64,000 nucleotides of DNA from Candidatus Hydrogenedentota bacterium. Lineage in GTDB: Bacteria > Hydrogenedentota > Hydrogenedentia > Hydrogenedentales > SLHB01. Where the stretch lies: the NCBI GenBank assembly GCA_029552745.1, contig JAKPDK010000042.1, positions 124,001 to 188,000 on the forward strand, given 5' to 3'. Each line of letters starts with the position of its first letter. Within the stretch, counting starts at the first letter, position 1. Shown here piece after piece: positions 30,246 to 41,003 of the stretch. The notes under the pieces were generated by a model, which made no database searches, had not been told where the DNA came from, and saw only the letters and a program-made list of their open reading frames with translations. Position numbers and translations under genes: made by a program.

Positions 30246-32381
30246 TCACGTTTCCCCTAATAAAACCTCGACGGTGGCACGAGGCGTCACCGTTGCGGTA
30301 GCATGCGCCTTCTTCCCGTTTGACAACCCTACAGTCATTTCATAGTCCCCAGCTAGGATTTCGGTTTCCGCAATCCCTTCTTGATTCGTAACCATTTCCT
30401 CGTTCTTCATCCATGCATGGATGCGGTCGCGGAGACGCTCAAAAACAGGTTTGGGAGAAACGTCGGGATATGTCAAGCCACCATGAATCACGGAGGGTTT
30501 TGCGTCTGTAATATCCCAATACGTAATGGACTCGATCGCGGGCGTCCCAAAAGCCAACGTGAACACGGCCTCCGTGTAGTCCGCCTGGGTCTGTAGCGTC
30601 CACGGTTCCCGCCAATAGGCGATCTCCGAACGGTCACCCGGTGAGGATGGCACGGACATTTCGGTGATATGCAGTGGTTTGCCAAACTGGCGGTATCGTT
30701 CCACCGTATCTACAAACCAACCTAACGAAAAGGCAGGGGCAATATGCCCGCCCAGAGCCGTATTGAGCCGCGGTCCCGAATAGAATTGGAGACCGATAAT
30801 ATCCACCAGATCCATTGTCCCCCGGTCTCGTAACATGCGCAAAAACGCCGAATACGTCAACGGATAATCTTCTGTCGGCTCGCCATCCAAAGAAAAACAC
30901 TGATACTTGCGTCCATAATCAAATTCATGCGGGCTGTTAATCAGGGTAGGTTTCTGGGTCGTTTCTTTCACGAGACGCCCCACGTCGCGCACGAGATTAA
31001 ACACGTCCTCCCGAGGCAACCCAATTATGTTCACGGTAGCAGGTTCATTCATCACTTCCCAGAGGTCAATTTGATCGCCCCACACATCCAACAACGTCTT
31101 CACATGGCGCTGGGCTGCTTTAACAAACAAATCGGGGGACAAGTTTCGCTTTGTTTCCGGCAGAATGCCATACTCTTGCAACCAGAGCACGCCATGAGCC
31201 TTTACGGAAAACCCCATTTGGCGTAGGGCGCTAATTCCCAAGATACGATTGATCGCGGGCCAATTTGCCCCTGCGCTTTCGTCCGTCCACCCCCATGCCG
31301 GCAAGACAGTGGCTAGTGAAAATCCCGCCTCGTGAGCTGCCTTATATGCCGCGCTGTTGAACGGACTTCCTTCAAACACACCAAACTGAAACCGAGGTTG
31401 CCGCAAGTGTAGATCGATCCGTTTTCCCGAAACCGGAACACCGGACTTGTCTCTCACCGTAACCTTCAGTTTCCCTTTCCGCACAGATAAAATGCGCCTT
31501 TGGGCAGCTTCCACTTCTAACTTGTCGCGAAGCCGCAGGGCATCTCCCAACAGCGTATTCGCGGCAACGGCACGATCCACCGGGGACTTCTTGGAAAGCA
31601 CAACGGAGAGACGCTGGTCCAACTCATCCAGAACACTTGCATGGGGTATAATCTCGCTGCGCCGTTTCAGATCAGCCACCGCCGTCCGCGCCAACTCCAC
31701 CTCGAAATCCAGAATGACGAGATCCCCTGCTTTTTCTACCCGAAACCCTTTACCTTCGTTGTCCGCACGCACCAGCACATTCCCGTATCCCGGCACATCC
31801 CAAAACAACGCCTGCACCACGTAGGTTTTTCCCGGTCTCACCGCCAGGGCGGGCAAACCCGTCTTCCACGAAGAACCCGTCACTCTCGAAGTTTTATCAT
31901 GCACGGGCCAACATACCGCTTCCACGGCTTCATCATTCAAGTCCGTCGCATAAAGAAATGCTCCGCCAAAGGTGCCGCGAGTCTCAAAATCTTCCCATCG
32001 CATGAGGCTACCGTCCTGACGATAAGCCCGAACGACCAGACAGCCCGCAGGCGGGAGACGTAGAACCAAATTCTCGGATGCTTCCTTGAGGGCAAAAAGT
32101 CGAGGCTGGTATGCATAACCTTCTATCTCTTCTTTTGCAGCAACCGCAGCCGGCTGCACAGCAAGAAACCGTATGGCGCGATCTGACGTTATGGTAAATG
32201 TCCCATCGGGTTCCGTCACCGCGTAGCCGTCCATCGTTCTATCTTGGGTTAAGGCAGAAATAAACGCCCCAGGAATCGGACGGTCGGAAGTGTCCCGCAA
32301 CGTACCCCGTATATCCCCAAACCCAGAAAAACAAATGCAAAAAATGACGTACACCGCCACACGAAAGCAGCGCGGTGACAT
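30246..32381 (-). CDS. GH10-family endo-beta-xylanase-like glycoside hydrolase
   Basis: A 711-residue exported enzyme. Signal peptide about 1-22 (VAVYVIFCICFSGFG), then a carboxypeptidase-regulatory-like beta domain (about 23-100: GTLRDTSDRPIPGAFISAL...DGTFTIT), a linker region with coiled segments, and a GH10 (beta/alpha)8 barrel from about 330. The acid/base glutamate is in LWEVMNEP (near 445) and the nucleophile glutamate in LHITEMSVP (near 572). Further GH10-like context: HGVLWLQ and IESITYWDITD. A short beta domain ends the protein. GH10 enzymes cut beta-1,4-xylans or related glycans. Placement between polysaccharide polymerase/ligase and glycosyltransferase genes suggests trimming or release of the cell's own glycan rather than nutrition; this is inference. 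Confidence 0.88.
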   Translation of the reverse strand: MSPRCFRVAVYVIFCICFSGFGDIRGTLRDTSDRPIPGAFISALTQDRTMDGYAVTEPDGTFTITSDRAIRFLAVQPAAVAAKEEIEGYAYQPRLFALKEASENLVLRLPPAGCLVVRAYRQDGSLMRWEDFETRGTFGGAFLYATDLNDEAVEAVCWPVHDKTSRVTGSSWKTGLPALAVRPGKTYVVQALFWDVPGYGNVLVRADNEGKGFRVEKAGDLVILDFEVELARTAVADLKRRSEIIPHASVLDELDQRLSVVLSKKSPVDRAVAANTLLGDALRLRDKLEVEAAQRRILSVRKGKLKVTVRDKSGVPVSGKRIDLHLRQPRFQFGVFEGSPFNSAAYKAAHEAGFSLATVLPAWGWTDESAGANWPAINRILGISALRQMGFSVKAHGVLWLQEYGILPETKRNLSPDLFVKAAQRHVKTLLDVWGDQIDLWEVMNEPATVNIIGLPREDVFNLVRDVGRLVKETTQKPTLINSPHEFDYGRKYQCFSLDGEPTEDYPLTYSAFLRMLRDRGTMDLVDIIGLQFYSGPRLNTALGGHIAPAFSLGWFVDTVERYRQFGKPLHITEMSVPSSPGDRSEIAYWREPWTLQTQADYTEAVFTLAFGTPAIESITYWDITDAKPSVIHGGLTYPDVSPKPVFERLRDRIHAWMKNEEMVTNQEGIAETEILAGDYEMTVGLSNGKKAHATATVTPRATVEVLLGET

Positions 32382-33930: not shown

Positions 33931-35352
33931 CTACTCCGATATCGCCGGTGCCAACCTGGGTTCAGTCGGCTGCCCTCCACTACCGCGACGGGCGTCCGTC
34001 GTCCACCATGCACATGCCATCGTCAGTAGACTTATTGTACCTTTTGCGACAACCGTCGTCCATGCCATACCCAAGATACCATATCGCGGCGCCAGAAAGG
34101 CAGCGACACTTACGAAAATAAGAAGTTTCAAACCTTCTAAGATTGCTATCAAACGGGAACGCCCCAACGAATAGACCGTTGCACTCGCTGGAACGCCCCA
34201 CAACGCCATAAAGGTGCCAAACAACAACACAGCAAGACAAAGAGTCGCGCGCGTAAACTCTTCCCCGAAGGTGAAACGCAATACGAAACGAAGAAAAGGC
34301 GACATCAGTACCAGCAGCACAGAACAAACCGTACAGCCCACCACCAACGGCAAAGAATATCGGATCAAGAACGAACGCGTGGTGTTCGCGTCACGACAGG
34401 TTCCCGCTTTCGGCAGTAGAACGCTGAAAAGACTCAACACCGCCAAATCTCCAACCTGCGCCAGTGCACGTGCCGCACTATAATCCCCACGAGGAACTTC
34501 TCCAATCCGAAACCACCCTAACAACAACATGTCGGCTCCGTTAGCAGCGCTTGTTAACGCACATGCGACCGCCACCCACCGAATGAAATAGAACATCTCT
34601 CGCAGTCGGTTCCAGATCTCCAATCGTGTTGCATGGTGAGAATACGATAACAAGGGAAGCCCAACAACCGACAAGACCCACGGGATAGCGGCATATGCGA
34701 CAAACACCAACAGCGGCGAGCGCCACCCCGCAACAAGGAGGATACTTATCGCAACCAAGCGGATGAGGGCGTGACCAAAATCCAACCCCCCATACAGCCC
34801 GAACCGCTGCCGTGCCTGAAAATACACGCGCACATACTCAAACAGCATAAAGCCGCCCGCCCCCGCAAGCGCGGCCGTCACCAACCACGGCGAAACGGGC
34901 GTGCTCGGATCGGAATGAAACAACAGGTTCCGTAAGAGAGAGGCTGCTAAAAATCCTACGACGAGCAATAGTCCAGCAAGCGCGGATTTGACCCATAAAA
35001 TCGCCCGAAGATAAAGATCCGCAGTTTCAGGTTCTCGCGTCGCAAACCGTACCGCGGCGGTGTCAAGTGCGGGACCTAGCAAACCCGCTGCGGTAAGCAT
35101 CAACGCCCGTGCAACCGATAAGTCGCCTAACCCCGTTGCTCCCAGCGCACGTCCCACCAACGCCAACGTTGCAAACGAGATCGCCGTCGAAAACACACGA
35201 AAAACAAAGACCGGACCGAAACTTTGTGACAACTCTGAAAACAACCCGCGCGGAGATGTGTTCGCAGTTGACAGGATATGTCCGGTGTCCCGTGTGTCTC
35301 CAGTTTGCTGCTCCATATCACGATACTGTCGGAAAAAGAGAGGAAAATGCAA
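33931..35352 (-). CDS. Polysaccharide flippase (Wzx / MOP superfamily)
   Basis: A 473-residue protein with about 12-14 transmembrane helices and the pattern of lipid-linked oligosaccharide flippases: SELSQSFGPVFVFRVFSTAI, LVGRALGATGLGDLSVARAL, and a middle section with ANGADMLLLGWF and GDYSAARALAQVGDL. It would move the lipid-linked repeat unit across the inner membrane for the adjacent ligase/polymerase. The start is uncertain: TTG 35352 is six bases after the stop of the preceding zinc-ribbon ORF and would be coupled to it, while ATG 35316 is a conventional alternative without a clear ribosome site. Function assignment does not depend on this. Confidence 0.88.
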   Translation of the reverse strand: MHFPLFFRQYRDMEQQTGDTRDTGHILSTANTSPRGLFSELSQSFGPVFVFRVFSTAISFATLALVGRALGATGLGDLSVARALMLTAAGLLGPALDTAAVRFATREPETADLYLRAILWVKSALAGLLLVVGFLAASLLRNLLFHSDPSTPVSPWLVTAALAGAGGFMLFEYVRVYFQARQRFGLYGGLDFGHALIRLVAISILLVAGWRSPLLVFVAYAAIPWVLSVVGLPLLSYSHHATRLEIWNRLREMFYFIRWVAVACALTSAANGADMLLLGWFRIGEVPRGDYSAARALAQVGDLAVLSLFSVLLPKAGTCRDANTTRSFLIRYSLPLVVGCTVCSVLLVLMSPFLRFVLRFTFGEEFTRATLCLAVLLFGTFMALWGVPASATVYSLGRSRLIAILEGLKLLIFVSVAAFLAPRYGILGMAWTTVVAKGTISLLTMACAWWTTDARRGSGGQPTEPRLAPAISE

Positions 35353-35358
35353 TCCCTT

Positions 35359-35472
35359 TCATTCGGGGGTTCGAAGCACGTTACCACAAAACCGACAACG
35401 CACGAAACCTTTGCTGCGACAGTGGCGACATCCAAACGCCGTAGCAATATGCCGTAATTCGAAGCCGATCAG
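35359..35472 (-). CDS. Cryptic 37-codon zinc-ribbon ORF (non-ATG start)
   Basis: In the 116-base gap between the auxiliary lipoprotein and flippase genes, one frame encodes a short peptide with two closely spaced CxxC knuckles: CRHC-x7-CRFCG, preceded by LRHIATAFG and ended by NVLRTPE and TGA. Four cysteines in a rubredoxin/DnaJ-like 'CxxC..KG...CxxCG' spacing are unlikely in random sequence. There is no ATG. The CTG at 35470-35472 overlaps the upstream TGA as CTGA, mimicking the ATGA overlaps used elsewhere in this operon, with GAGG four bases before it. The flippase TTG lies six bases past its stop. Expression is unproven; a zinc-binding regulatory or assembly peptide is possible. Confidence 0.45.
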   Translation of the reverse strand: MIGFELRHIATAFGCRHCRSKGFVRCRFCGNVLRTPE

Positions 35473-36077
35473 CGAGCCTCAGACGTGGACAATTTCAGCG
35501 CAACCATGTGCTGAACCGCCTCGGAGATGACACGTCCCGCGGCGCGACCCAGCGCTTGGACAGACGCAGCGGGATCGTTTGGCGTGGCTACAGGCTCCGT
35601 CGCCGAAAGCGTCTCCACCCATACCACCCGCCGATCGGATGCAGCGCGAAGTTCGAAACTGACCTCGCACAATACCTGCGTCGAGGCTCCTGTCCGCACT
35701 TCCTCAAATCGCCGTATCTTACCTAACACTAGGAAATCCGGTACTCCCACATCGAAAACAAGCCCCACATCTTGAAACCGCCCCGATGCACGCAACGCAT
35801 CCACAAACGCCCGCGTCAGCGTTTCCGCTGGCAATTCTGCCCATTCGGCATTCGGATAAGCGGTCAACGTTGTACCTTGCTCCAGATATAACACCTGCAA
35901 ACGGTAGGGACGGGCTGCCTCCAAAGGACGCACCGCGAGGCGCAAGGGCAACGTTTCCGCCTGACTCGTCTCCACCGGCGGCTGCAACACATACCGGGTC
36001 ATCGGAACGTAACGAGGCGTAGAAACGCAACCGGCAAAAAACAAACAACCCACCAGAAGTGCAGCGTAACGCATCAT
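35469..36077 (-). CDS. ABC-type transport auxiliary lipoprotein (PqiC-like)
   Basis: A 202-residue outer-membrane-type lipoprotein of the ABC_trans_aux family (PqiC-like), the fourth partner of MCE/Mla-type lipid transporters. Signal peptide with lipobox FFAG-Cys17. The body shows the family pattern: TRYVLQPP, LPLRLAVRPLEAARPYRLQVLYLEQGTTLTAYPNAEWAELPAE split over two strands, then a helix LTRAFVDALRASGRFQDVG and strands with VPDFLVLGKIRRFEEV. It likely receives or docks the MCE protein at the outer membrane. Its ATG overlaps the mlaD stop by four bases. Its stop overlaps the proposed CTG of the zinc-ribbon ORF. Confidence 0.85.
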   Translation of the reverse strand: MMRYAALLVGCLFFAGCVSTPRYVPMTRYVLQPPVETSQAETLPLRLAVRPLEAARPYRLQVLYLEQGTTLTAYPNAEWAELPAETLTRAFVDALRASGRFQDVGLVFDVGVPDFLVLGKIRRFEEVRTGASTQVLCEVSFELRAASDRRVVWVETLSATEPVATPNDPAASVQALGRAAGRVISEAVQHMVALKLSTSEAR

Positions 36078-37042
36078 CTACCTCCTGCCGCTTTCCCTTT
36101 TCCGCGTACCAGTGCGGACGGGTCTTCTCTCAGATATTCAATGAGATCATGTAGCGCAGCTACGGTCTCATGAACCGTGTCAAGCGTCTCTTTGAACTTG
36201 TATTGAACGTGTTGGGTGTCTTGAAGCACGTTGCCAGCCGCATGGTCAAGTGATTCCGCCGTCTTCTGGAGACGTTCTAATAAAACGCCGCCTTTTTGCA
36301 GAACATTCGCCAAATCGGCGTTGACCTGTGCCGTGTCCAATGCGTTGATTTTGGTGCGTAAGTCAACCACAGTCGTACGGATCTCTTGCGAAGTCGCTAT
36401 CAAGTCCTCCGTGAGACGTTGAAAACTTTCTGTGCCGGAATCCACGCGGCTACCTATTTTTTCTGCCTGCTCCCGGAGCGTAGCCACAGTCTCTTTGGTC
36501 TCTTCTACAAGTTCATCCGTACGCTTAATCAAACGTGCAAAATCGCCTTCCTCTATCCCTTCCAGACTCTTGTTCACCGCGTCGGCTACATCGGAGAGAT
36601 TCTTCAACAGGACAGAAGTCTGTTCGCCAGCCGCACCCAAAAATGAGATTTCGCTTTCGATGGACGACCCCGCCGGCAGGGGCGGTGCATCTGATTCGCC
36701 ACCGTATAAGTTTACGGCCAGTGACCCCGTAGCGAGACTGTATAGTACCAACTGCGCTTTTACCCCTTGGTGCAACGTCACCTTGTCCACCTCCACATGG
36801 ATAAGTACGCGGGCATGACCGCTAGGCAAAACGTCGATGTCTTTCACTTTCCCTACAGGCACCCCTTGATACACCACATAGGCGCCTGGATAAAGACCCA
36901 GAACCGACTCCGTGAATTCGACGTAGTACGGCAACATGGGTACATGCGTAAATCCTTGGATAATCGCCAGTCCTGCCGCCATTACCCCAACACAAATCGC
37001 CAAGAACAAGAGCACCTTGAGTTTTTGCGCTCGCGTTGCCAC
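36074..37042 (-). CDS. mlaD: MCE/MlaD-family substrate-binding protein of lipid transporter
   Basis: A 322-residue inner-membrane-anchored MCE protein. One N-terminal transmembrane helix (about 10-30, LLFLAICVGVMAAGLAII), one MCE domain (about 35-115) with ESVLGLYPGAYVVYQGVPVG and a later TGSLAVNLYGG strand, and a long C-terminal helical tail with heptads (about 140-310). It forms a hexameric ring that passes phospholipid between membranes. GTG 37042 is chosen: GGAG lies upstream and it starts just after the mlaF stop; the longer ATG reading would run through mlaF coding sequence. The coiled tail is longer than in E. coli MlaD, as in PqiB/LetB or Mce-type proteins. Confidence 0.9.
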   Translation of the reverse strand: MATRAQKLKVLLFLAICVGVMAAGLAIIQGFTHVPMLPYYVEFTESVLGLYPGAYVVYQGVPVGKVKDIDVLPSGHARVLIHVEVDKVTLHQGVKAQLVLYSLATGSLAVNLYGGESDAPPLPAGSSIESEISFLGAAGEQTSVLLKNLSDVADAVNKSLEGIEEGDFARLIKRTDELVEETKETVATLREQAEKIGSRVDSGTESFQRLTEDLIATSQEIRTTVVDLRTKINALDTAQVNADLANVLQKGGVLLERLQKTAESLDHAAGNVLQDTQHVQYKFKETLDTVHETVAALHDLIEYLREDPSALVRGKGKAAGGR

Positions 37043-37044
37043 CT

Positions 37045-37824
37045 TCAGGTCTCCTTTTTGCCACTTTTCGCGAATGAACCATCGGCGCACCGTTTGAAGA
37101 AAGCTTGCACGTAGGGATTCTCACTCGCCTCCGCTTCAGGCACCGTTCCCGTAAAAATCGCCTTCCCACCATGTAACATCACCGCACGATGGGCGATAGT
37201 TCGAATACTCTCGAGTTCATGCGTCACGATGATAAAGGTGATACGCAGCATGCGATTCAGGCTTAAGATCAACTGATCGAGGCCTGCGGCAGTGACGGGG
37301 TCTAGCCCCGCAGAGGGCTCGTCAAAATAAACCACGGGCGGATCCAACGCCAAGGCGCGCGCCAAGCCCGCTCGTTTCCGCATACCCCCAGACAATTCCT
37401 CCGGCAAAAGAGCCCGGGATTCCGCCAACCCAACCAGGCTCAACTTCAAACGAACCACGGCATCAATTAAACGCTCTTCCATGTGCCCGTATTCACGTAG
37501 CGGCAAGGCTACATTGTCTGCAATCGTCATCGAGTTAAACAACGCACCACCTTGAAAAGCAATGCCAATAGTCTGCTGCAGTTCGGCTAGCTCGTCTTCA
37601 TCCAGTAAGGTAATATCCGTCCCGCGATATCGAATAGATCCAGACGTCGGTTTCAACAGACCCGTCATGTGTTTTAGCAATGTGGTTTTGCCACAACCAC
37701 TGCCTCCGATTATCACGAGAATCTCACCTTCGTACACTTCAAGCGACACCCCATCGAGGATCTTCCTGTCCCCGTAGTGCGTCACCAAGTTTTCAACCAC
37801 GATCAACGGTTCCGTCATCGTCAC
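37045..37824 (-). CDS. mlaF: Phospholipid ABC transporter ATPase
   Basis: A 259-residue ABC ATPase of the MlaF/Mkl type that powers the MCE transporter. Walker A GGSGCGKTT (near residue 39), Q-loop in IGIAFQGGALFNSMTIADNV, ABC signature LSGGMRKRAGLARALAL, Walker B VVYFDEPSAGLDPVTAAGLD, switch histidine in FIIVTHELESI. The FQGGALFNSMTV stretch and SGGMRKR signature are specific to this subfamily. GTG 37824 or ATG 37818 may be the start. It lies directly between mlaE and mlaD. Confidence 0.95.
   Translation of the reverse strand: MTMTEPLIVVENLVTHYGDRKILDGVSLEVYEGEILVIIGGSGCGKTTLLKHMTGLLKPTSGSIRYRGTDITLLDEDELAELQQTIGIAFQGGALFNSMTIADNVALPLREYGHMEERLIDAVVRLKLSLVGLAESRALLPEELSGGMRKRAGLARALALDPPVVYFDEPSAGLDPVTAAGLDQLILSLNRMLRITFIIVTHELESIRTIAHRAVMLHGGKAIFTGTVPEAEASENPYVQAFFKRCADGSFAKSGKKET

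Positions 37825-41003
<3,179 letters not shown>

Follow-up and report, generated by a model that had tools for sequence, protein, structure and literature searches.

Whether the short cysteine-rich reading frame between a pqiC-like lipoprotein gene and a flippase-like gene of a Candidatus Hydrogenedentota bacterium encodes a protein is the question raised by this locus, which lies in a window of 64,000 nucleotides (the whole stretch of DNA analysed). In the first-pass annotation it was put forward as a zinc-ribbon ORF inside an envelope operon, translated from a CTG. The present analysis leans against a translated protein, which is considered improbable, and reads the frame, at about even confidence, as a non-coding spacer with chance cysteines and not a gene.

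The reading frame and its start options

The stop-to-stop frame on the minus strand (35478-35359) reads directly as GSLIGFELRHIATAFGCRHCRSKGFVRCRFCGNVLRTPE*. It contains a putative coding frame of 37 codons, LIGFELRHIATAFGCRHCRSKGFVRCRFCGNVLRTPE (35359..35472), which runs from CTG (35472-35470) to TGA (35361-35359) on the coding strand and sits neatly in the gap between pqiC and the flippase gene. Re-reading of the sequence confirmed the 37-codon minus-strand frame of the first-pass annotation with its four-cysteine motif CRHC-x7-CRFCG (35385..35427), as well as the overlap of the CTG with the pqiC TGA stop as CTGA (35469..35472). The nearby ATGA overlaps to which this had been likened are real at mlaD/pqiC (36077-36074) and ligA/mlaE (38904-38901), and the TTG placed six bases beyond the stop of the frame is found at 35352.

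The description of CTG as the only start held in part. ATG, GTG, and TTG are all absent from the frame upstream of the cysteines, leaving it without a usable standard start codon; CTG is not strictly the sole exotic option, because ATC and ATT occur in the frame as well. A GAGG tetramer (35477..35480), weakly Shine-Dalgarno-like and embedded in pqiC codons, lies 4 nt 5' of the CTG and might assist initiation there. The candidate frame and the flippase gene share one reading frame, with a single TGA between them.

Genomic context

The candidate frame follows a block of minus-strand genes comprising ligA (38901..41000), an NAD-dependent DNA ligase gene with LigA matches and synteny in relatives; an mlaE-like permease gene with an N-terminal STAS domain (37825..38904; Pfam MlaE E 9.8e-62, STAS E 3.9e-5); an mlaF-like ABC ATPase gene (37045..37824; Pfam ABC_tran); an mlaD-like gene (36074..37042; Pfam MlaD E 5.9e-11); and the pqiC-like gene for an ABC-transport auxiliary lipoprotein (35469..36077; PF03886, E 6.3e-11). 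The mechanically called mlaD start, GTG 37090, is probably wrong, and the sequence context favors GTG 37042, which follows AAGGAG and lies 3 codons past the CTGA at the mlaF stop. PqiC has the full usual length and its relatives' C-termini end similarly; extension of its C-terminus by a frameshift was rejected, as the protein already ends at the relatives' C-terminal position. LigA matches place the genome in Candidatus Hydrogenedentota, the nearest named records being Hydrogenedentota MAGs and none a close relative. Matches to PqiC were also found in these MAG genomes, and the order ligA-mlaE-mlaF-mlaD-pqiC is kept across the order in Candidatus Hydrogenedentota relatives wherever the contig is long enough. 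That a DNA ligase gene is so stably linked to a lipid-transport operon (35469-41000) is curious in itself.

Downstream of pqiC, this genome carries flippase, O-antigen-ligase-like, and glycoside-hydrolase-like genes, an arrangement not seen in the relatives examined, where flippase homologues (34-38% identical) sit elsewhere in the genome. The gene next after the O-antigen-ligase-like one in this envelope cluster (30246-32381) encodes a protein that resembles glycoside hydrolase family 10 by eye. The flippase-like membrane protein is read from its ORF at 33931..35316 on the minus strand, with start candidates at ATG 35318-35316, TTG 35352, and TTG about 35245. Read from the ATG, the protein is already about 20 residues longer than its homologues, which align from around residues 20-33 onward, and the start is uncertain (35316-35359). 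Elsewhere on the contig, at ~187.7-192 kb (window end ~63.7 kb and beyond), two post-gene spacers encode the near-identical strings RGAESPTRRSNPLNRVAQ and RGAASPTRRSNPLNRAAQ, suggestive of a repeat dispersed between genes.

Chance expectation for the motif and the overlap

The claim that four cysteines in this spacing are unlikely by chance was overstated, as 505 kb of the same genome contain 12 instances of CxxC-x(5-12)-CxxC outside the frames of genes. Two of these 12 pairs are intergenic, the candidate frame counted among them, and another is read in a shadow frame of pqiC, at a distance of some 370 nt; the exact x7 spacing is found in the candidate frame alone in the 505-kb sample.

Among the stops of 357 called genes, ATGA is read 59 times, GTGA 35, CTGA 31, and TTGA 29; ATGA alone is in excess, and CTGA is not overrepresented compared with GTGA or TTGA. 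Of the gaps between co-directed genes, 19% measure 100-250 nt. Where a gene closely follows one of the other CTGA stops, its normal start comes at most a few codons later, exemplified by the mlaD GTG after AAGGAG, and none of the other CTGA cases examined shows a sign of a CTG start. Both the CTGA overlap and the gap size at the pqiC-flippase boundary are therefore ordinary.

Homologues, structure, and RNA signals

The first-pass annotation had named a peptide search of related genomes as a check on the frame. This search gave no convincing match to the 37-residue peptide in 60 relatives, and across 68 genomes of Candidatus Hydrogenedentota neither a homologue nor the four cysteines were recovered; since the genomes compared stand at family distance and none is congeneric, this absence is still compatible with a genus-level orphan. 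The best non-self matches in the phylum had E 0.004-0.008, all of them lacking the four-cysteine pattern, and a shuffled peptide with the cysteine spacing kept reached E 0.02, so the real peptide performs barely better than its shuffle. The same search found bL36, also of 37 residues, at ~1e-13 in most genomes and is therefore able to detect proteins that short. In 29 relatives, the 500 bases that follow pqiC encode no double CxxC pair (one contig stops after just 74 bases and one is partly masked), and neither do the 500 bases before the flippase homologues of 10 relatives. The candidate genome itself holds no second copy of the peptide; a weak match on another contig was rejected, since it falls within a predicted gene of that contig but outside its reading frame. 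Plasmid and phage searches returned matches with E above 4 only, and the relatives searched have no gene with the same C-terminus as the candidate frame.

NCBIfam gave nothing for the peptide and the PDB nothing significant. In Pfam, zf-BED (PF02892) alone came near it, with E 0.018 and 15.5 bits against a curated cut-off of 20.6; what is shared is this sub-threshold match of 15 residues around the second CxxC, and the candidate frame differs in matching only a fragment of the domain. Single-sequence AlphaFold modeling predicted one short helix and no ribbon at pLDDT 57, compared with pLDDT 52 for the chance four-cysteine frame from pqiC as a control; for small zinc proteins, models of this kind weigh little in either direction. 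The pqiC-flippase spacer shows no Rfam hit; no promoter, terminator, or structured RNA was matched in it, and its RNA does not fold more stably than shuffled sequences.

Coding potential

The synonymous codon choice of the candidate frame is very gene-like, with a log2 ratio of 4.9-6.6 across scorings. Measured against a mononucleotide background, the score is 6.3 bits; when intergenic triplets serve as the background and the local genes are excluded from training, it is 6.6 bits, a value reached by 1 of 3613 intergenic windows. Scores of 6.3-6.6 bits rank with the highest 1-5% of real gene windows and are attained by 0.03-0.5% of intergenic windows, all such intergenic fractions being approximate because the training gene calls came from a simple script and the windows overlap. 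Conditional on the peptide, P for the synonymous signal is ~5e-5 to 1e-4; among GC-matched intergenic windows, none attains the signal. The candidate frame scores best of the six frames over the stretch, and the signal ends at the TGA, falling to background level between this stop and the flippase gene. Such codon usage speaks for a stretch that codes for protein or once did.

Scores that include amino-acid content show only a weak signal, so that overall coding potential is modest and the coding evidence mixed. In total codon score the frame ranks at the 19th percentile among gene windows, a level reached by 10% of intergenic windows, and 3-periodic Markov models give the frame +2 to +2.7 bits, equaled by 7-10% of intergenic windows. 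The Cys codons alone contribute 4.9 bits against coding, and the richness in Cys and Arg lowers the score of the frame, a penalty that is unfair to a genuine zinc protein yet typical of spurious frames.

Weighing the explanations

The candidate frame is most likely no gene, because it is missing from the relatives, lacks a normal start codon, and shows a pattern of a kind that arises by chance; its orphan status, the start codon, and the ordinary overlap statistics together favor a chance frame, and its codon choice leaves some doubt on this reading. The weights attached here to the four explanations are judgements and not computed values; the sequence, the missing homologues, and the codon statistics are demonstrated, whereas translation, zinc binding, and the junction are inferred. 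In the preferred explanation, the conserved ligA-mla block ends with pqiC, a flippase gene specific to the lineage was joined on behind it in this genome, and the stretch would be part of the untranslated spacer between the two; the four cysteines would be a chance reading of this spacer. With no terminator or promoter matched in the spacer, its role may be limited to that of a flippase leader in a continuing transcript. One competitor, a translated, lineage-specific zinc-binding microprotein of ~37 residues, is unlikely. It would be made by termination-reinitiation at the CTG as ribosomes finish pqiC, and its four cysteines would hold one zinc ion and mediate contact with protein or nucleic acid. 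Such a protein draws on the gene-like synonymous codons, the GAGG 4 nt 5' of the CTG, a double CxxC motif built from cysteines only and closing with CG, and the location of the CTGA overlap in a block with ATGA overlaps, in line with the stop/start coupling that is widespread and described for ATGA and TGATG (PMC6728339). The candidate start shares with those ATGA-coupled pairs the 4-nt overlap with the upstream stop; unlike them, it uses CTG, and CTGA is not enriched at stops here. CTG is a rare start codon in bacteria: switches from AUG to CUG were found for only 2 of 61,358 reconstructed ancestral AUG starts (PMC5622118), fMet-tRNA initiation on CUG is inefficient (PMC11497404), and the other CTGA cases here have a normal start a few codons on. 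Precedent comes from the paired C(P)XCG zinc microproteins of Haloferax volcanii (PMC10716476), where HVO_0758 and HVO_2753 (PMC10716476, PMC6562870) resemble the candidate frame in being very short and in carrying two CxxC pairs with a G after the second. The two pairs of CRHC-x7-CRFCG would by their sequence suit one zinc ion. However, the first pair reads CRHCR, so that a G after both pairs is not found, and the Haloferax proteins come from an archaeon and have been studied and found to bind zinc, whereas the candidate frame has no canonical start and no homologue whose cysteines could be conserved among the 68 phylum genomes, none of them congeneric. The missing counterparts after pqiC and before the flippase homologues also tell against the protein, as does, weakly, a model without a ribbon fold. 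Taken as a whole, a lineage-restricted zinc microprotein in an envelope operon with its CTG start coupled to the pqiC stop is rather doubtful.

The codon signal has another possible source in a gene remnant, such as the truncated 3' end of a former pre-flippase gene at a rearrangement junction behind pqiC, which would have kept its codon choice and stop and lost its start. Gene-like codons without a start and a signal that ends at the TGA accord with this history, and because the flippase homologues sit elsewhere in relatives, a junction must be in or near the pqiC-flippase gap; nevertheless, no relative has a gene with such a C-terminus and the genome holds no second copy, and a remnant is likewise judged improbable. 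Far less credible is an N-terminal extension of the flippase by readthrough or recoding of the single in-frame TGA, which would fuse a cytoplasmic zinc ribbon to the membrane protein. That one codon is all that separates the frame from the flippase reading, yet a shared frame is a 1-in-3 coincidence, the flippase homologues have no such extension, the codon signal is at background between the TGA and the flippase, TGA is an ordinary stop of many genes in this genome, and the RNA fold does not exceed its shuffles.

Implications

As a probable chance frame, the pqiC-flippase spacer offers an example of how double-CxxC motifs arise by chance in spacers and shadow frames, and shows that overlap with a stop as CTGA means little on its own. 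If translated, the frame would yield a zinc microprotein that is an orphan and starts at a coupled CTG, which would be of some interest for small-protein annotation.
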